This document shows positions 33,042 to 41,376 of a stretch of 64,000 nucleotides of DNA, piece after piece. The first letter of the stretch is position 1; each line of letters begins with the position of its first letter. The DNA lies in the NCBI RefSeq assembly GCF_900101165.1, contig NZ_FNFK01000007.1:1-64000 (forward strand). Direction: 5' to 3'. This DNA comes from Alkalibacterium thalassium. GTDB lineage: Bacteria > Bacillota > Bacilli > Lactobacillales > Carnobacteriaceae_A. The notes below the pieces were generated by a model, which was given only the letters and a program-made list of their open reading frames with translations, had not been told where the DNA came from and made no database searches. The translations under genes and the position numbers were made by a program.

Positions 33042-33074
33042 CAAAAAAGAAAACAGAGGCGCCAGGCCTCTGTT
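33042..33074 (-). terminator. terminator of the fumC-containing locus
   Basis: AACAGAGGC and GCCTCTGTT form a perfect 9-bp stem, followed on the minus strand by TTCTTTTTT. It closes the transcription unit 57 nt after the fumC stop. Confidence 0.9.
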
Positions 33075-33131
33075 CGATTTAAAAAGCTGGTATCAGAATC
33101 TCATTTTCTAAATGAATTGCATCCAGTCACA

Positions 33132-34493
33132 CTACACCATGTCAGCCGGATCGATATACTTCTCGAATTCTTCTTCTGTAAGTATCCCCAGGTCAACAGC
33201 TGCTTCTTTTAGAGTCGACTGGTCTTCGTGGGCTTTTTTGGCAATCTGACTGGCTTTATCGTAGCCAATCTTCGGGGCGAGAGCGGTCACCAGCATCAGC
33301 GACTGGTCTACCAGTTCGCTCATCTCTTCTTCCACCACTTGTATGCCTTTCAGACACTTGCTGTTAAATAAAGCGAGGCTGTCTCCCAGCAAAGTAATGC
33401 TCTGAATCATATTGTAAGCAATAACTGGCATATAAACGTTCAGCTCGAAATTTCCCTGTGAAGCTGCGACACCGATTGCCGTGTCATTCCCCAAAACCTG
33501 TACGGAGACCATTGTTAGTGCTTCTGCCTGAGTAGGATTTACTTTTCCAGGCATGATGGAGCTGCCTGCTTCATTGGCGGGAATCGTTATTTCTCCCAGC
33601 CCACTTCTTGGTCCACTGGATAGCCACCTGACATCATTCGCCATCTTCAATGCATTTGCCGCCAGAGCCTTCAGCGCACCATGAGCAAAGACGAAGGCAT
33701 CTTTACTCGTCAGGCCGTGAAACTTATTCGGATTCTCCTTAAATTCGATGCCGGATGCCTGACTGATTCGTCGGATAGTCTTCTCTGCAAAGTCCGGATG
33801 GGTATTTAATCCGGTACCTACAGCTGTTCCACCGAGTGGCAGTCGTTTCAATGGAATTAATGCGGCTTGGATCATTTCAGCATTCTGAACCATCATTTCC
33901 TTCCAGCCGCTGACTTCCTGACCGAACGTGACAGGCGTTGCATCCTGAAGGTGAGTCCGTCCGATTTTTATCGTATCTTTATACCTGGTTTCCAACTCTT
34001 CCAGTGTGTGCTCAAGCTCCCCCAGCACTGGCAGCAGATGATCAGTAAGCAGCCGGACAGAAGCAATGTGCATCGATGTAGGAAAGGTATCGTTGGTACT
34101 CTGCCCTTTATTAACGTCATCATTTGGATGTATGTCCAGTCCACTTTCACCTTTTGCCAGGTGAGCTATGACCTCGTTGACATTCATATTGGTCTGTGTG
34201 CCGCTGCCTGTCTGCCAGACGGATAGAGGAAATTCACTGTCCCAGTGTCCTTTAATGATCGCATCACAGACTGAAGCTATGGCGTCTGCTTTCTGGGGTT
34301 CGAGTAACCCCAGCTCGGCATTTGTTTCTGCCGCTTCTTTCTTGACGCGTGCATACGCATGGATCAGCTCCAGAGGCATCGTCTCGTTTCCAATAGAGAA
34401 GTTCTGCAGACTGCTCTGAGTCTGAGGTCCCCATTTACAATCCTCGGGTATTCCGATTTGTCCAAATCCATCTTGTTCCAGTCTTTTTATCAT
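33132..34493 (-). CDS. fumC: fumarate hydratase class II
   Basis: FumC hydrates fumarate to malate reversibly. The 453-aa protein has TGSGTQTNMNVNE (residues 95-107), HPNDDVNKGQSTND, GRTHLQDATPVTFGQE and the superfamily signature GSSIMPGKVNPTQ, all typical of class II, iron-free enzymes. It lies only 13 nt after the PRD regulator gene, hence in the same transcript, and a terminator follows. In Lactobacillales a lone fumarase often serves fumarate/malate exchange rather than a full TCA cycle. Here its neighbours suggest it may use fumarate freed by the lyase at 37.0-38.4 kb. Confidence 0.95.
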   Translation of the reverse strand: MIKRLEQDGFGQIGIPEDCKWGPQTQSSLQNFSIGNETMPLELIHAYARVKKEAAETNAELGLLEPQKADAIASVCDAIIKGHWDSEFPLSVWQTGSGTQTNMNVNEVIAHLAKGESGLDIHPNDDVNKGQSTNDTFPTSMHIASVRLLTDHLLPVLGELEHTLEELETRYKDTIKIGRTHLQDATPVTFGQEVSGWKEMMVQNAEMIQAALIPLKRLPLGGTAVGTGLNTHPDFAEKTIRRISQASGIEFKENPNKFHGLTSKDAFVFAHGALKALAANALKMANDVRWLSSGPRSGLGEITIPANEAGSSIMPGKVNPTQAEALTMVSVQVLGNDTAIGVAASQGNFELNVYMPVIAYNMIQSITLLGDSLALFNSKCLKGIQVVEEEMSELVDQSLMLVTALAPKIGYDKASQIAKKAHEDQSTLKEAAVDLGILTEEEFEKYIDPADMV

Positions 34494-34506
34494 AATGCTC
34501 CCCTTT

Positions 34507-36072
34507 TTAAATCATAATATCCGGAAAAGCTGTCTGCAGATAAGTGGTTCTGTCCATAGTATCCGATCTTGTTTCCAACTGTCTGACAACCTCTTCTGCG
34601 AGAAGTTTCTTATTACGGCTGCTTGTAAACCCATGATCGAGCAGCCGCTTGATGTCATCACTTGTCAGATAGAAATTTATCTTGATACTTTCCCATCCTA
34701 ATTCAGATAGCAGAACCGTGATCCTGTTTGAAAAAGTCAAGATTGCATCGAATTTCATTTCTTCAAGTCTGTATAACTCGTTGATTGTCAGATAAGAGAC
34801 CATCTCGTAATTGACATGCTGGCTTAATACTTCCAGAAAAAATGAAACTTTCTCGACAGAAGAATTTGTGATGATGACGACCCGCCTGTTATTCTGGCCG
34901 GCAACTCTGTTCTTTATAATGAACCGTTCAAGAATCAGACAGACCACGGAGATCTGATGATCGGTCAGCTCACAGCCGTCATCTGTCTCCCACGTACTGA
35001 CTGTCCGCTTTACTTGTTCATACAGTTTCGGAAAGACAGTCTTGGTATTATCCAGCTTGTCATCGTAAAAATAGTAGGCCAGCTTGTTTTTGATCAGACA
35101 CTTATAGAAATAGGCATACAGCTCATTATATATACTATCATACGTATAGAACTGAACCTGATTTTTTTCTTCTATAACATTGATCAGCTCTTCGGTCAGC
35201 CTCTTGAGCTGACTATTGAATGGAAAGTGTAACGGTTCCTTGTAGTTCAACGAGGCAATCAGGTAATCCAGATAATCACTGTCTTCCTGGACTGGAAGAA
35301 GATAATTCGAAGCCACTTCAGGCATATCTTCAATAATCTCTTTAATGGTATAGCCTTTTTCAATACGTATGAGACTGATCATCATATGGAGGTAGATAAA
35401 TTTCTTTGATGGATAATCGACTAATCGGGCATCCGGACCAAAGAAGTCACAGAGCTTGTCTTTCACTTTGTCGTGGTAAGCTGTCAGGTAATGCTCCACC
35501 AGTTCGTAAAGGAGAGTCTGTACAGGCGTATTGGCCTGCCGAGGAACATAGTCATCATTCTTTTTCAACTCGATGACAGACAACAGATTCCTTGCTGCAA
35601 TCATTCTGAGAAACCGCTCGTTCCCTTCAAAACTGACCCCTTTCCTATGCCTGTTTACTACTTCAATGCCATTTTGTTGAAGGAGAAAGCCCAGTTCTTT
35701 CCTGTCTTTCTTCTTCGTGGACAAACTGAGGTTCAACCTGGCATACAGTTCGGTCATATTGACAATGCCGTCAAGCAGCCCGAAGCACACAATCAGACTG
35801 AGTCGCTCTTCCAGTGACGGGGAATAGTCATTCATATCTAGCCGCTGACAGAGAGCCGAGAAGTCAGCATAAGTCATATTCGTTCTGATCTCATGATGAC
35901 TGATGCTGAACCTCAGGTGATCGGGAATGTATTCATTCAACGTATAAATGCTCCGCTTAAGCGTCGACTCACTTTTTCCGAACAGTTCTTCACAGGCTTT
36001 AAAGTCAATTTTACCTTTATCCTGAACATAATTAGCCAACTTCAGGTCAAACTGGGTCACGACCACGCTCAT
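34507..36072 (-). CDS. PRD-type transcriptional regulator with helix-turn-helix domains
   Basis: This 521-aa protein looks like a BglG/Mga-class regulator. An N-terminal winged-helix stretch includes a STLKRSIYTLNEY helix, and a second helix-turn-helix follows near LSTKKKDRKELGFLLQQNGI. Helical PRD-like regions carry conserved histidines. The C-terminal part (RRVVIITNSSVEKVSFFLEV) resembles a PTS EIIB-like domain. Such proteins activate adjacent PTS operons in response to phosphorylation. AAGGAG is only one base before the ATG, so a GTG two codons later (7-nt spacing) may be the true start. The assignment to a particular subfamily is inferred. Confidence 0.75.
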   Translation of the reverse strand: MSVVVTQFDLKLANYVQDKGKIDFKACEELFGKSESTLKRSIYTLNEYIPDHLRFSISHHEIRTNMTYADFSALCQRLDMNDYSPSLEERLSLIVCFGLLDGIVNMTELYARLNLSLSTKKKDRKELGFLLQQNGIEVVNRHRKGVSFEGNERFLRMIAARNLLSVIELKKNDDYVPRQANTPVQTLLYELVEHYLTAYHDKVKDKLCDFFGPDARLVDYPSKKFIYLHMMISLIRIEKGYTIKEIIEDMPEVASNYLLPVQEDSDYLDYLIASLNYKEPLHFPFNSQLKRLTEELINVIEEKNQVQFYTYDSIYNELYAYFYKCLIKNKLAYYFYDDKLDNTKTVFPKLYEQVKRTVSTWETDDGCELTDHQISVVCLILERFIIKNRVAGQNNRRVVIITNSSVEKVSFFLEVLSQHVNYEMVSYLTINELYRLEEMKFDAILTFSNRITVLLSELGWESIKINFYLTSDDIKRLLDHGFTSSRNKKLLAEEVVRQLETRSDTMDRTTYLQTAFPDIMI

Positions 36073-36087
36073 TCTCCTTATCTCTTT

Positions 36088-36103
36088 TTGTTAACGTTAT
36101 CAA
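36088..36103. promoter_or_regulatory. cre-like or LacI-type palindromic operator before the regulator gene
   Basis: TTGTTAACGTTATCAA is nearly palindromic around a central CG, as in CcpA cre boxes and LacI-family operators. One core cre position differs from consensus. It lies just upstream of the PRD regulator's ribosome-binding site. Confidence 0.45.
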
Positions 36104-36151
36104 AGCAGTTCTAAAAAGTAAAGATGATTCCTGACTCTTTATCACTCTGTA

Positions 36152-36934
36152 TTATAGTGTTCCATAGTGGCTTAAGTCGTAGCCGTATGACTGAAGCATC
36201 TGACTGAATGCCTGAGTGCACAGAACTTCCACTTCCCTCATTCTAGGCAGATGGAATGAGGACTGATAGTACACCTCTGTATCAACGAAGCCCGGATGAC
36301 AGCTTGCTTCAACTGTTCCATATCCGTTAAATTTTTCAGCGTTTTCTTTGAATACATCAAACAGCGTGTCTTGAACTTCGGAAAAGGACCGGGACATGTC
36401 CTTGAACGCCGGAAAGTTGAACAGATTCCAGAAGGCTTCCGTGACATAACAATCTGGATAAGCTGAACGCTCAAGTACATCTCCATAGACTCTGATGGGC
36501 AGGTGATATTCCTTACTCAACTGCTCCGTCACTTTTGCATGTTCCCCCATTATGTGTACATAGTGATGCGAATCGATGTGAGTCAATTTTACGCCCAGAT
36601 TCAGAAGCTTGTCTATCTGTGCTTTCCATTCTATATACAGTTGATCCAGATCAGCAGATTCAGTCTGGTAGAAGGCTCTTTTCTTGAACAGGCCATTCTC
36701 ATCAACTAAATTATCTGTCCCGTCGCTGACCGGTTTGCCCATTGTCAAAGCCAGATGAACGCCAATACCTAAATTAGGTACTGAGGGGATCAGCTTAAGT
36801 GCATGATCAAGTCCGGGCATATTCGCCATCATAGTCGTTGATGTCACTGCTCCTGATAAATGGGATTCAACGATCCCGTAGTTGATACCTTTAGAATAGC
36901 CGAAATCATCGGCATTGATTATCAGTTTAGTCAT
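36152..36934 (-). CDS. YdjC/ChbG-family carbohydrate deacetylase
   Basis: Members of this family remove acetyl groups from N-acetylated oligosaccharides such as diacetylchitobiose 6-phosphate. The 260-aa protein has the metal-site residues in NADDFG (residues 7-12), GVHLAL (His60) and HIDSHHYVH (119-127). The C-terminal CHPGFVD block is also typical. It is preceded by an intrinsic terminator that would reduce read-through from the lyase gene. No chitobiose-type EIIA/B/C genes are present, so the substrate is probably not chitobiose itself. Confidence 0.8.
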   Translation of the reverse strand: MTKLIINADDFGYSKGINYGIVESHLSGAVTSTTMMANMPGLDHALKLIPSVPNLGIGVHLALTMGKPVSDGTDNLVDENGLFKKRAFYQTESADLDQLYIEWKAQIDKLLNLGVKLTHIDSHHYVHIMGEHAKVTEQLSKEYHLPIRVYGDVLERSAYPDCYVTEAFWNLFNFPAFKDMSRSFSEVQDTLFDVFKENAEKFNGYGTVEASCHPGFVDTEVYYQSSFHLPRMREVEVLCTQAFSQMLQSYGYDLSHYGTL

Positions 36935-36960
36935 ACGTCACCTCTTAATTAATATAAAGC

Positions 36961-36985
36961 AAAAAAACTGCCTGTCCAGACAGTC
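36961..36985 (-). terminator. intrinsic terminator inside the PTS locus
   Basis: ACTGTCT and AGGCAGT pair around a GGAC tetraloop, followed by seven T residues on the minus strand. It lies 16 nt after the lyase stop and before the ChbG-like gene. It probably lowers expression of the downstream half or acts as an attenuator. Confidence 0.8.
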
Positions 36986-37000
36986 TTTCTGCACTTATGG

Positions 37001-38362
37001 TTACAGTAACTCTTCAGAAAGCTTTTCTGCTCTCTTTGATGCTTCTTTAGCCAACTGCGAAGCCAGGCCTGTATAGCTTCTTGGATCGATCAGGTCTTTT
37101 AGTTCCTTATCGTCGTATTTTTCATCGATCAGATCATTTGCCTTCAGGTTTGTATAAAAGTCTTCCCCATAAGCAGCTGTCTTGATTGCTATATCATAAA
37201 CTAGAGAATGGGCATTGTCTTTCCCAAGTTTCTTCGCCATTTCCATCATGACATATTCACTGTTGTCGAGTCCTTTATTTCTCAGAGCATTTTCCAGCAT
37301 ACGCTCCTTATTGATCTGGAGGGTTCTGGTCAGCTCCTCAGCACGTAAAAGAATTTCTGTCATCAGCTGAAGCGCTTCTTCCATTAACCCATCAAAGAGC
37401 ATGTACTGGCTGCTGTCCCCTTCATATGGTCTGACAGCTGAGTAAGACCCCACTCCGGGAAGAGAATACAGTTTCTGGGAATTGGCAATAATGCCTTTTG
37501 CCAGTTTCGGATTGATCTTGTGCGGCATCGTGCTGCTTCCAACGGTCCCTTCCTTGAAGCCTTCTGCTACTTCTGCTATTTCTTCAAGACTGGTCTGGTA
37601 GACTTCCTCTGCCATCTTATGACAGACATTTCCCAGCAGCGACAGGTTCATCATGTACTCGAGCTTGTGAGTATTGATGCTTCGGGACGGCACGTCCATC
37701 GGATACATACCAAGCAGTTCCGCAACACGCGCCTGGACTTTAGGTCCTACTTCAGGCATCGTACTGAATGTTCCAACGGCGCCGCCCATCATTACTCGGA
37801 ATACCCGTTTTTCGGATTCTCTCAATCGTTCGATGCTGTCAATGAACTCACTGATCCAGGCAGATACTTTATAGCCGTATGTGATAGGTGTCGCATGTCG
37901 CCCATGTGTCCTGCCAGGCATAACAGTGTCTGCATGCTCGGCAGCCAGTTTGGACAAGTTTTTGAGAATCTGTCCTGACAGCAGCATAAACTTATCATGA
38001 ATCTGTTTCATGACATAAAGCTGTCCACTCTGCTGCACATTCTGAGTCGTAATGCCGTAATGGACGTACTTGCCACTGTCTTCTGGACAGGCTTTGACCA
38101 GCACTTTAAGGAAAGGCACAAAGCCATGCCCAATTTCTCTGTAAATGCGGTCCATTTCTTCAAAATCGATATTTTCAACTTTCGCTGACTGTTCAATGTC
38201 TAAAGCCGCCTGCTCAGGAATAAATCCTGCTTCTGCTTGAGCCTTTGCCAGAGCTGCCTCTATTTTCAGCCACGCTTTGTATTTTGTCTGTTCTTCAAAA
38301 AGCTCCCGGATCCCCCGGTCATCTATTGTCTTACTTTTGGAGTCATAAAATGCTCTCATCAT
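37001..38362 (-). CDS. fumarase/adenylosuccinate-lyase superfamily lyase of unknown substrate
   Basis: The 453-aa protein belongs to the superfamily whose members break C-N or C-O bonds beta to a carboxylate, usually releasing fumarate. Visible are HYGITTQN (101-108), RTHGRHATPITYGYKVSAW (151-169, nearer to 3-carboxymuconate cycloisomerases than to PurB) and the signature GSSTMPHKINP (275-285). It is called adenylosuccinate lyase by general resemblance. However, its place between a PTS permease and a deacetylase, away from pur genes, argues for a catabolic role on a conjugate. The first two codons are both ATG and either may start. Confidence 0.7.
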   Translation of the reverse strand: MMRAFYDSKSKTIDDRGIRELFEEQTKYKAWLKIEAALAKAQAEAGFIPEQAALDIEQSAKVENIDFEEMDRIYREIGHGFVPFLKVLVKACPEDSGKYVHYGITTQNVQQSGQLYVMKQIHDKFMLLSGQILKNLSKLAAEHADTVMPGRTHGRHATPITYGYKVSAWISEFIDSIERLRESEKRVFRVMMGGAVGTFSTMPEVGPKVQARVAELLGMYPMDVPSRSINTHKLEYMMNLSLLGNVCHKMAEEVYQTSLEEIAEVAEGFKEGTVGSSTMPHKINPKLAKGIIANSQKLYSLPGVGSYSAVRPYEGDSSQYMLFDGLMEEALQLMTEILLRAEELTRTLQINKERMLENALRNKGLDNSEYVMMEMAKKLGKDNAHSLVYDIAIKTAAYGEDFYTNLKANDLIDEKYDDKELKDLIDPRSYTGLASQLAKEASKRAEKLSEELL

Positions 38363-38388
38363 CGGTCTTCCTTTCTAAGGTTAAGCTT

Positions 38389-39948
38389 CTATTTCCCTGC
38401 CATGTAGTCGTCTACTTCGTTGCGGACGAACTCGACATGCGGACCGAATACAACATGGACGTGATTCTTTTTAGGGAAGAATATTCCGGATGCTCCGGCT
38501 TCTTTCAGCTTATCGGCATTAACGACTTTCTGATCTTTCAGATCAATACGCAGACGAGAGACACAGTTATCAACTTGAGCCACATTCTCTTTTCCACCTA
38601 ATCCTTCGATAACCAGTTGAGCAATATCGCCATAACGTTTTTCGTTAAGCAGCGTCACATTACGGTTCACATCTTCACGTCCCGGTGTCTTGGCATCCAG
38701 TTTCACGATCAAGTAACGGAACACGAAGTAGAAAATCACAAAGTTGGCGATCCCTACGAGTACCAGATTGATCCACCCAGTATTTTCGTAAAGCAGACCG
38801 AAGATGACAAAGTCGAAAATCGTTCCACGTATATAACCGATACTGACGTTCATCATCGCTAGAGGAATAACGGTGATACCGGCCAGAATGATATACACAA
38901 TATAAAGGATAGGAGATATGAACATGAATGAGAATTCCATTGGTTCAGTAATGTTCCCCAGGAAGGCTGTCAGGACAACAGTAAGAATGATCCCTTTTGC
39001 CAGCTTCTTGTTTTCTTTATAAGCAGTGTGATACATTGCCAGTCCAATAGCTGGAATACGGAATAAAGTAGTCAGCATCTGACCGGAAGCCAAATACGGG
39101 CTGATTTGAGGCATGATGCGTCCCCATGCTTCATGAGAAGGCCCCAGTTCGAACAGGACTTCGTTCATGGCATTTAATATCCCTACATAATATTCTCCTT
39201 CGATCACCCAAGTTCCACCTGCTTCAGTAAATCGTACAACAGCGGCCAGAACGTGGTGCAGACCAAAAGGAATAAGCGCACGGTTAAGCAGTGCATAGAT
39301 TCCGGCACCGAACGGCTGGTTCATTAGTATTGGAGACATGCCTATCAGCATGCGGGTAAAAATGCCCCAGATGAACGGCAGGACCAGTCCAATTGGAACA
39401 GTGAACAGGAATGAAAGAATCAGGACTGACTTTTTACCTGAGAAGAAGGCAAAGGCAAGCGGCAGCTGTACTCTGTAAAACTTGTCTGTCAGCTTGGCAG
39501 CCAACAGCCCCGAAATGATCCCTCCGGCTGCATCAACACGGATCGTCTGAATACCAAGTACCATGCCTTGACCCAGTTCGTTCATGACTTCAGGATCTGC
39601 CAGATTCCCTGTTGCGTTTAAGTAGACATTCATCGTTGTTATAAGAACTAGATAACTGATGATCGATGAAAATACTGCAATTCCTTTTTCGTTCTTAGCC
39701 ATTCCGTACGCCACACCCATGGCGAACAGGACCGGAATGTTACTAAAAATGATACTGGATATCTGTTGAGTACTGCTTAGAACAGTCTGTAGTGTTTCAT
39801 TCCCAAGAATCGGAAACTGTTCGATCATGTAACTTTGCGTGAACGCCCCCATCAATCCCATCAGCATACCTACTGGCGCCATTATCCCGATAGGCAGAAG
39901 CAGTGACCGTCCAAATACTTGGATCTGATCTTTAAATTTATCCCACAT
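38389..39948 (-). CDS. PTS transporter subunit EIICB, glucose/N-acetylglucosamine family
   Basis: This permease imports and phosphorylates a sugar. The 519-aa protein has an EIIC domain (about residues 1-400) with roughly ten membrane segments and the family motif GNITEPMEFSFMFISP. A C-terminal EIIB domain carries the phosphoryl-accepting cysteine in VDNCVSRLRIDL (Cys462). No EIIA domain is attached, so EIIA must come from elsewhere. It lies 17 nt after the NagA-like gene and 26 nt before the lyase gene. An amino sugar or a conjugate is the likely substrate, judged from its neighbours. Confidence 0.85.
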   Translation of the reverse strand: MWDKFKDQIQVFGRSLLLPIGIMAPVGMLMGLMGAFTQSYMIEQFPILGNETLQTVLSSTQQISSIIFSNIPVLFAMGVAYGMAKNEKGIAVFSSIISYLVLITTMNVYLNATGNLADPEVMNELGQGMVLGIQTIRVDAAGGIISGLLAAKLTDKFYRVQLPLAFAFFSGKKSVLILSFLFTVPIGLVLPFIWGIFTRMLIGMSPILMNQPFGAGIYALLNRALIPFGLHHVLAAVVRFTEAGGTWVIEGEYYVGILNAMNEVLFELGPSHEAWGRIMPQISPYLASGQMLTTLFRIPAIGLAMYHTAYKENKKLAKGIILTVVLTAFLGNITEPMEFSFMFISPILYIVYIILAGITVIPLAMMNVSIGYIRGTIFDFVIFGLLYENTGWINLVLVGIANFVIFYFVFRYLIVKLDAKTPGREDVNRNVTLLNEKRYGDIAQLVIEGLGGKENVAQVDNCVSRLRIDLKDQKVVNADKLKEAGASGIFFPKKNHVHVVFGPHVEFVRNEVDDYMAGK

Positions 39949-39965
39949 AATTTTTTCCTCCTTGT

Positions 39966-41165
39966 TTACTTTTCAATTTTTTGTTTAATTCCTTTAACAT
40001 ACGTGTCGTACAGGTTGAACTCTCCATCTATTACTAAAAAGTCGGCATCTTTTCCTTTTTCAAGGCGCCCTTTCCTGTCAGATACACCTATGTAGGCAGC
40101 AGGATTCTCAGAAGCCATTTTCACGATGTCTCCAATGGATGCATCGACATTTTTGACAACATTTCTGACTGAAGGAAGAAAGCCCAATTCAATGTCTTTC
40201 ACACTGGAATAGTCAGTCTTGTCCAGGAGCTCAGTCTTGCCATCATCTCCAGTCACCCGTACTAGCTTATCGCTTTCAGGTTCGAACGTCGCTTCGCGAA
40301 TGTAATGGTATGTTTTTTCACTGACTTGAGCTAGTCCCGTGCAGTCTGTGGTGAGCGTGATTCTGTCAGGCCCTTTTATTTTGTACACGATTGCAAAAGC
40401 TTCCGGCCTGACTGTCAGTCCAGTCTGCTTACCGAACTCCGCATACATATCATCGAAGTACATAGCTGCTCCGGCCACTCCGAGACGGCGATGGTGCATT
40501 CCCCTCATTCCGCTGAACGTATGGGTGAAGCCTCCAAGGCCTAAATCTTTCAATTCCTTGATCTCTTCAAATTCCGCTGCACTGTGTCCGACTGAGATCT
40601 GGATGCCTTTCTGGTTAAGATAAGTGATCACTTCAGCTGCTCCCGGCAGTTCCGGCGCTAGAGTCATCAGTTTTACGAGGCCGTCACTGACCGGGTTCAA
40701 CAAGTCATCGACTGTTTCAACCGTCGGCGGCAGACAGTACTCGGCTTTCTGCATCCCCTTGTACTTTTCATTTATGAAGGGGCCTTCCAGGTGCACGCCG
40801 ATAAGATCAGCCCCCATATCAGGGGTCCACTCTTTCCCAAATCGGTCTGCTGCTATCACTTGACTTTTTAAGTTGTCTAAATGATCAGTTGCTGTTGTCG
40901 CCAGATACGAGGTCACACCCATATTGACCAGATCTTTCGACATTCTGGCCAGAGACTGCTCGTCTCCCTGATGGATAAACGATCCTGTTGCCCAGCCATG
41001 TATATGGACATCTATAAATCCTGGAATGATAATCTTGTCTCCGTAATCGATATACTCCTCCTTTTCGATAGTATCGTGGATACCTTCAATCTTCCCATCT
41101 TCCACTTCAAGATAACCGGATTGATATCCACTCGGTGTATAGATTTTTTCTGAATAAATGAACAT
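39966..41165 (-). CDS. NagA-like amidohydrolase (N-acetyl-sugar-phosphate deacetylase family)
   Basis: The 399-aa protein is an amidohydrolase-fold enzyme. It has DVHIHG (52-57), HLEGPF (125-130), VGHSAAEF (192-199), THTFSGM (214-220) and TTDCTG (272-277). These keep the metal ligands and catalytic Asp of N-acetylglucosamine-6-phosphate deacetylase. The usual HLFNAM and VTDA substrate-site motifs are altered, so the substrate may differ from GlcNAc-6-P. It is the first gene of the locus, behind a promoter with an adjoining inverted repeat. A Shine-Dalgarno AGGAGTG precedes the ATG. Confidence 0.75.
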   Translation of the reverse strand: MFIYSEKIYTPSGYQSGYLEVEDGKIEGIHDTIEKEEYIDYGDKIIIPGFIDVHIHGWATGSFIHQGDEQSLARMSKDLVNMGVTSYLATTATDHLDNLKSQVIAADRFGKEWTPDMGADLIGVHLEGPFINEKYKGMQKAEYCLPPTVETVDDLLNPVSDGLVKLMTLAPELPGAAEVITYLNQKGIQISVGHSAAEFEEIKELKDLGLGGFTHTFSGMRGMHHRRLGVAGAAMYFDDMYAEFGKQTGLTVRPEAFAIVYKIKGPDRITLTTDCTGLAQVSEKTYHYIREATFEPESDKLVRVTGDDGKTELLDKTDYSSVKDIELGFLPSVRNVVKNVDASIGDIVKMASENPAAYIGVSDRKGRLEKGKDADFLVIDGEFNLYDTYVKGIKQKIEK

Positions 41166-41239
41166 GTCTTCACTCCTTCCTGTTGTTCTGATGAATGAGT
41201 TAACAACACAACAAAAGACTTCTGCGTCTTACAGCTATA

Positions 41240-41268
41240 TAATAGGTTTATTTTATAGTGTATACAAG
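41240..41268 (-). promoter_or_regulatory. promoter of the NagA-like/PTS/lyase locus
   Basis: TATTAT (41240-41245) is preceded by TTGTAT (41263-41268) with a 17-bp spacer. The weak -35 and neighbouring inverted repeat fit an activator-dependent promoter. Confidence 0.6.
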
Positions 41269-41306
41269 GTCATTACATTATATTATTACAGGTCACATAA
41301 TGACCC
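41269..41306. promoter_or_regulatory. inverted-repeat operator candidate abutting the -35
   Basis: GGTCATTA (41269-41276) and TAATGACC (41299-41306) are exact inverted copies 22 bp apart. A third GGTCA lies at 41292-41296. Placement directly upstream of the -35 is typical of activator sites, and the locus's PRD regulator is the natural candidate. Confidence 0.5.
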
Positions 41307-41323: not shown

Positions 41324-41376
41324 ATAAAACACCTGCCTTCCGTTCCTTTTCTACTAAAGGAACGGAAGGCAGGTGC
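41324..41376 (-). terminator. uraA terminator
   Basis: A perfect 20-bp stem (41331-41350 with 41357-41376) around a 6-nt loop is followed on the minus strand by TTTTATATTTTTTTG. It separates uraA from the PTS locus. The 41379-41561 stretch between it and uraA shows no convincing gene. Confidence 0.93.

Follow-up and report, generated by a model that had tools for sequence, protein, structure and literature searches.

What a sugar transporter, two deacetylase-like enzymes, a fumarate-type lyase and a fumarase could be doing together is the question raised by a six-gene cluster of Alkalibacterium thalassium (assembly GCF_900101165.1, contig NZ_FNFK01000007.1, positions 1 to 64,000; this stretch of 64,000 nucleotides (nt) is called the window). 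From its 5' end, the cluster encodes a NagA-like amidohydrolase, an EIICB protein of the phosphotransferase system (PTS), a lyase of the ADSL/fumarase superfamily, a YdjC/ChbG-like deacetylase, a PRD-type regulator and the class II fumarase FumC (Table 1). The first-pass annotation, made from the sequence of the window, had described six closely spaced genes in one direction, with fumC only 13 nt from the regulator gene. We found all six open reading frames (ORFs) on the minus strand, with gaps of 17, 26, 66, 79 and 13 nt in that order, and the families were confirmed with Pfam and NCBIfam profiles. On balance, the locus is probably an operon for breaking down a sugar conjugate that bears a C4-dicarboxylate.

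By scanning named bacterial and archaeal genomes with peptides of the window lyase, a procedure that favors near relatives, we found 37 lyase loci, 28 of them gammaproteobacterial (mostly in Proteus, Morganella and Providencia) and 9 from Bacillota. An EIICB gene lies 5' of the lyase gene, on the same strand and within 400 bases, in 37/37 loci, although at least three of these EIICB genes are fragments (in L030 and L045, where the contig ends, and in L015, where the gene is truncated). An RpiR-type regulator is found near the lyase in 32 of the 37, and the two such regulators that were tested both carry HTH_6 and SIS domains. In a sample of 395 Lactobacillales genomes (the order sample), the lyase, called at E up to 1e-80, is present in 22, and EIICB adjoins it in 19 of the 21 genomes other than that of the window, 18 times on the same strand. 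The two genomes without adjacent EIICB are G028, where the lyase ORF is shortened, and G301, whose lyase is a plasmid copy next to an alpha-glucoside PTS. A class-level sample gave the lyase in 3/398 genomes. Two of them had been counted in the order sample; the remaining one, G708, shows the arrangement PTS-lyase-malic enzyme, with fumC absent from the 19 kb read. The shared core is PTS EIICB plus lyase, usually with a regulator. Of the gene set that the first-pass annotation had proposed to search for in other genomes, this is the part that recurs, whereas the deacetylases and fumC are optional. This pair appears to be a widespread, apparently undescribed sugar-catabolic unit of lactic acid bacteria, bacilli and Morganellaceae.

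A PRD-PTS-lyase unit is carried by the Klebsiella aerogenes conjugative plasmid pC9_001 (L007, 4121-8860). On the Companilactobacillus pabuli plasmid pLNT-1 (L008, 12004-13386), a lyase 53% identical to ours ends a cluster of alpha-glucoside PTS and alpha-glucosidase genes and is without the usual PTS partner. The Bacillus kwashiorkori unit looks disrupted, with transposase-like ORFs (IS66 type by eye) 5' of the truncated PTS gene (L015, 6284-9948), and the shortened lyase ORF of G028 (L121, 8809-9795) is accompanied by a partial PRD gene, with no PTS found, and is probably a decaying copy. In Cytobacillus firmus (L016, 11490-13081), nagB is convergent to and adjoins a PTS-lyase-RpiR unit, which fits glucosamine 6-phosphate (GlcN6P) as a product. 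No DNA match to the lyase gene of Klebsiella sp. BIGb0407 was found at E 1e-20 in E. coli complete genomes. In Proteus mirabilis, the RpiR-family regulator PMI2974, which might be the regulator of the PTS-lyase unit, is named among the kidney-specific fitness factors (PMC5484520).

The lyase matches Lyase_1 (PF00206) at 117.4 bits against a cut-off of 27. It is like the adenylosuccinate lyase PurB in superfamily, catalytic motifs and ADSL_C domain: aligned with the PurB of the same genome, it retains the GSSTMPHKINP catalytic loop and both catalytic His positions, and residues S276, S277, K282, N284, H79 and H153 are invariant in an alignment of 13 sequences. However, we reject the possibility that it is PurB. 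First, it scores 251.1 bits with TIGR00928, under the cut-off of 326.2. Second, where the PurB of this genome has TSTDVVDT and HERDISHSS, the lyase has TTQNVQQS and YEGDSSQYM, and it offers no match to the N-terminal MIERY; these PurB stretches contact the nucleotide. Third, a separate gene at C62 of the same genome (G000) encodes a PurB that carries the PurB motifs and is 32% identical to the lyase by BLAST, which removes the concern raised in the first-pass annotation that the lyase might be the only PurB of the cell. Annotated plasmid copies name the lyase only as "adenylosuccinate lyase family protein". From the linkage described below, fumarate is the likely product. A reaction of the cycloisomerase or decarboxylase type, making no fumarate, seems quite improbable: the sequence-nearest solved structure is 3c8t, named only Fumarate lyase, and trans-aconitate decarboxylase 1, CMLE and PurB follow it, which lends such a reaction some support, but the full GSSxMPHKxNP loop, both His positions and the linkage to fumC and malic-enzyme genes argue against it.

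That linkage is frequent. In the order sample, fumC (E up to 1e-110) is present in 181/395 genomes, including 18 of the 22 lyase carriers. A same-strand fumC no more than 5.5 kb from the lyase gene occurs in the window and in 11 other carriers out of 21, giving 12/22. The outcome that the first-pass annotation had set against its own proposal, namely that fumC is never linked to the other five genes, is rejected by this linkage to the lyase. A malic enzyme of about 390 amino acids is linked to the lyase in 8/21 order genomes (Pfam domains were checked on the Vagococcus lutrae copy, and the others identified by BLAST to that copy). The gene orders vary: PTS-lyase-malic enzyme-fumC-RpiR, PTS-lyase-ydjC-RpiR-malic enzyme-fumC, PTS-lyase-ydjC-malic enzyme-fumC, PTS-lyase-PRD-fumC, and lyase-fumC with a divergent PTS. 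In a tree of 41 FumC sequences, 14 lyase-linked and 27 unlinked, the latter chosen by hand, the lyase-linked FumCs do not form one clade (approximately unbiased (AU) test, p 2.4e-60). At least five changes of the linkage label, gains or losses, are forced by well-supported branches; in this tree the linked L. daqingensis row is a long branch of odd composition. Because each of its two well-supported halves contains linked FumCs, the tree indicates that the fumC-lyase pairing arose more than once, and this repeated pairing is our best evidence in support of fumarate as the lyase product.

On a Cereibacter sphaeroides plasmid (L010, 4117-6914), a lyase-fumarase pair is again found, this time with a different uptake system: TRAP transporter genes lie 5' of the gene of another ADSL-family lyase, and a class II fumarase gene follows directly. 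In the Morganella loci, a fumarase-superfamily gene whose product is 36-37% identical to FumC lies about 6 kb off on the opposite strand. The FumC of the window has the C-terminal FumaraseC_C domain and falls about 7 bits short of TIGR00979 (658.0 vs 664.75); its Atopococcus orthologue passes at 686.1, and we keep the view that the window protein works like FumC.

We read the surroundings of fumC in seven genomes of the family that have no lyase. In five of them (G004, G006, G009, G024 and G025), the interval from uraA to fumC is free of ORFs reaching 80 amino acids, and in the other two (G003 and G010) the two genes are separated by one ORF of 522-541 amino acids, which matches a malic/malolactic-type gene of Alkalibacterium subtropicum by length and position. 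A methyltransferase gene comes after fumC in all seven, then rpoB in six (not in G003). The PTS-lyase block sits between uraA and fumC in the window, in Atopococcus tabaci (L012) and in A. subtropicum (L013), accompanied in the last by the malate-enzyme gene, and the FumC of the window is 96% identical to that of the lyase-less G004. The adjacency of fumC at this locus may thus be inherited, the same site being found in relatives without the operon. Since these relatives share the uraA-fumC site, there is no need to suppose that fumC arrived along with the rest, and we reject the idea that all six genes entered this locus together; either the PTS-lyase block was placed 5' of an existing fumC, or it was lost in the relatives.

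The shared site and the 96% identity also raise the possibility that fumC is merely a resident neighbor, with the five-gene block lying 5' of an existing fumC that sits by uraA, and that the lyase may release something other than fumarate. We consider this unlikely, as it does not account for the linkage of the lyase to different FumC lineages, in varied gene orders and in other families, nor for the linked malic enzyme. The route drawn in the first-pass annotation, from import of a conjugate through deacetylation and fumarate to malate, is upheld in part: repeated linkage of different FumC lineages argues for a PTS-coupled lyase with fumarate as likely product and FumC (elsewhere malic enzyme) consuming it, but the position of fumC in the window is the old uraA site of relatives that have none of the other five genes.

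Clues to the sugar come from the deacetylases. The metal ligands of NagA are His, His, Glu, His, His and Asp, and when NagA is seen in a structure with its substrate, N-acetylglucosamine 6-phosphate (GlcNAc6P), the anomeric OH is bonded by a His and the phosphate by an Asn (PMC6016474). In the NagA-like proteins, the metal ligands H54, H56, E127, H194, H215 and D274 are invariant. The anomeric-OH His is kept in the other NagA of the genome and in the five solved NagAs displayed, whereas it is Thr (T251 in the window protein) in 6/6 lyase-linked NagA-like proteins, within the motif KQ[TS]G[LMI]TV. The phosphate-bonding Asn is also changed in these proteins, to Ser in five and to Gly in one. Because the His that binds the anomeric OH is replaced, the NagA-like enzyme probably meets no free anomeric OH, and this suggests that its sugar carries a substituent at C1. 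A profile built from the six proteins recognized this subfamily in 5/395 order genomes, all of them lyase carriers and all belonging to the building set of the profile, and no lyase-less genome among the 395 matched at E 1e-95. One carrier of the NagA-like gene, G017, has its lyase broken across two contig ends and is for that reason missing from the count of 22. The other NagA of the window genome is encoded on C76, and the nagB-like gene beside it falls slightly short of its own cut-off (231.6 vs 236.9). The YdjC protein keeps the conserved Asp and His motifs and passes Pfam YdjC (184.3 vs 29.7) but misses the ChbG model NF002559 (219.6 vs 227); ydjC is linked to the lyase in 5 of the 21 other lyase carriers in the order sample.

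We propose the following route. The EIICB would import the conjugate, a C1-substituted N-acetylamino sugar, and phosphorylate it at C6, and the NagA-like and YdjC enzymes would take off the N-acetyl group. The lyase would then eliminate fumarate. What is left, GlcN6P or GlcNAc6P, is an amino-sugar 6-phosphate that the resident NagA/NagB enzymes would process, with GlcN6P going to NagB, while FumC would hydrate fumarate to malate. Malate could be turned into pyruvate by a malic enzyme encoded elsewhere in the genome, where a malic-enzyme domain match lies on C39 in an open frame of 291 amino acids. Clusters that lack deacetylases would use a non-acetylated compound or pass GlcNAc6P to the housekeeping NagA. 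Genome and sequence comparison establishes the PTS-lyase unit, its recurrent linkage to fumC and malic-enzyme genes and the altered NagA site, whereas all these reactions, and the substrate, are inferred. If fumarate is the product, a C4 acid and a sugar would be harvested from one PTS substrate, which defines a testable substrate class.

The most likely substrate class on this evidence would be glucosamine or N-acetylglucosamine (GlcN or GlcNAc) with a malyl group at C1, of the GlcNAc-malate type. In GlcNAc-malate, GlcNAc is alpha-linked to malate, and the compound fits, being a GlcNAc with C1 occupied whose cleavage would give fumarate. The altered active site of the NagA-like enzyme thus favors the amino-sugar conjugate suggested by the first-pass annotation, but to name GlcN(Ac)-malate itself as that conjugate is a tentative guess. 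The corresponding chemistry, with uptake by the PTS as the 6-phosphate, deacetylation by a dedicated NagA relative with C1 occupied and beta-elimination of the malyl C-O bond to give fumarate and GlcN6P, is possible rather than probable. GlcNAc-malate is a precursor of bacillithiol (PMC4101496, which writes "maleate"). BshA was found above its cut-off in 0/27 genomes of the family compared to 3/14 controls; all 27 have matches under the cut-off, probably to other glycosyltransferases. GlcNAc-malate would therefore be scavenged, and recycling of the cell's own bacillithiol is judged unlikely. Were GlcN(Ac)-malate the substrate, the operon would provide a degradation route for part of bacillithiol, its sugar-acid half, by which non-producers would feed on the thiol cofactor of other bacteria.

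Two other conjugates would also release fumarate. With a Heyns-type N-linked aspartate adduct, the PTS would import N-(1,2-dicarboxyethyl) glucosamine and the lyase would split it by C-N elimination into fumarate and GlcN6P. This is nearest to known ADSL/ASL chemistry, suits an EIICB related to NagE among others and explains the minimal unit of PTS, lyase and RpiR, GlcN6P being a housekeeping metabolite. However, it leaves the NagA-like and YdjC deacetylases without a role and the lost anomeric-OH contact unexplained, and we rate it as unlikely. Degradation of fructosyl-aspartate, an Amadori compound taken up by the PTS and cleaved by the lyase to fumarate and 1-amino-1-deoxyfructose 6-phosphate, is very improbable. 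This amino-sugar product is not a housekeeping metabolite, no deglycase was recognized among the cluster genes read and the deacetylases are again unexplained, even though glycated amino acids are known as bacterial nutrients (PMC5270733).

Besides the possibly inherited position of fumC, several observations weigh against the proposed operon for a C4-dicarboxylate conjugate. First, fumC is present but unlinked in 6 of the 18 order genomes that have both genes (by coordinates in G176, G261, G275, G301 and G386; by absence from the 19-kb neighborhood in G302). Second, in the DNA read, which was short for some, none of the 28 gammaproteobacterial loci shows linkage to a deacetylase, to a malic enzyme or to fumC on the same strand, and both deacetylase genes are missing from the A. 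subtropicum cluster, which does include PTS, lyase, PRD and fumC. Third, among alphaproteobacterial relatives with about 46% identity, one stands beside genes of a peptide-type ABC transporter, not of a PTS. Finally, the NagA-like protein passes TIGR00221 by a bare 0.35 bits (226.0 vs 225.65), and its predicted structure has a confidence score (pLDDT) below 50 over residues 214-278, which span the residue of interest.

Like the NagE-NagA-NagB pathway of GlcNAc catabolism, the cluster has a PTS EIICB of the glucose superfamily and a NagA-type deacetylase, and its product is expected to enter as GlcN6P. Unlike that pathway, it adds a fumarate-type lyase and fumC, its NagA-like enzyme lacks the anomeric-OH His, and another NagA and the nagB-like gene are encoded elsewhere in the genome. 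In the catabolism of N-acetylmuramic acid (MurNAc) by MurP-MurQ, the sugar is imported by a PTS and phosphorylated at C6, and its acid side chain is eliminated from the amino-sugar phosphate. The logic of the proposed pathway resembles this one, and many relatives of the cluster have MurR/RpiR-type regulators, but the parts are distinct: the lyase belongs to the ADSL/fumarase superfamily and is not a SIS-domain etherase, and the proposed acid is fumarate, not lactate. The YdjC protein shares its family and the retained Asp and His motifs with ChbG of the chitobiose operon; unlike ChbG, it is just under the cut-off, and neither a chitobiose-type PTS nor a 6-phospho-glucosidase is among the six genes. 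The proposed substrate, a C1-substituted GlcNAc, is the sugar-malate unit of the bacillithiol intermediates GlcNAc-Mal and GlcN-Mal; the known enzymes BshA, BshB and Bca make or free this unit (PMC4101496), whereas the cluster would degrade it. Among the papers listed by a literature search, which did not cover most subscription journals and preprints, none describes the gene set or a route degrading GlcNAc-malate in its title or start of abstract.

Table 1. Features of the six-gene cluster and its putative signals, in order from the 5' end (window coordinates).
Feature	Position	Strand	Basis and proposed role
NagA-like amidohydrolase	39966..41165	-	Pfam and NCBIfam; proposed deacetylase of a C1-substituted N-acetylamino-sugar 6-phosphate
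PTS EIICB, glucose/NagE/MalX superfamily	38389..39948	-	PF02378, PF00367
ADSL/fumarase-superfamily lyase	37001..38362	-	PF00206; proposed fumarate elimination from phosphorylated conjugate; not PurB
Terminator-like hairpin and T run between lyase and ydjC	36959..36992	-	May attenuate transcription or end a first transcript
YdjC/ChbG-family carbohydrate deacetylase	36152..36934	-	Pfam YdjC; NF002559 just missed
cre-like palindrome 5' of regulator gene, possible CcpA site	36089..36102		Strict palindrome pattern; no strand
PRD/Mga-type transcriptional regulator	34507..36072	-	Weak Mga helix-turn-helix (HTH) and PRD domain matches
Class II fumarate hydratase fumC	33132..34493	-	FumaraseC_C domain; 13 nt after regulator gene
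Intrinsic-terminator-like hairpin past fumC	33051..33075	-	Closes the cluster

The EIICB protein has the EIIC (PF02378) and EIIB (PF00367) domains and reaches none of the NCBIfam cut-offs for whole transporters; no EIIA gene lies within the six-gene cluster. The PRD regulator passes both of its domain cut-offs weakly (Mga HTH 26.3 vs 21.1, PRD 24.1 vs 23). Concerning transcription signals, the terminator that the first-pass annotation had placed at 33.04 kb coincides with a terminator-like hairpin at 33075-33051. The promoter it had placed at 41.24 kb was not called by a promoter scan, which over the whole window gave 15 promoter-like sites against a mean of 18.0 in shuffled sequence, fewer than expected by chance; by eye, a TTGTAT-17-TATTAT pair at that place is plausible but weak. 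A further hairpin (36992-36959), missing from that annotation, is overlapped by a 10-of-12 promoter-like match. Because this terminator-like hairpin with its T run lies between the lyase gene and ydjC, the cluster may be split there into two transcription units. The strict cre palindrome has one match in the window against 0.39 expected, which is not significant alone, and a broad CcpA-site pattern, for which 2.45 matches were expected over the window, gave two, both outside the cluster; the perfect cre-like palindrome at 36089-36102 is thus a possible site, supported by its position and not by statistics. Between uraA and the operon (41329-41376), an inverted repeat of 20 pairs followed by T residues is likely a terminator.

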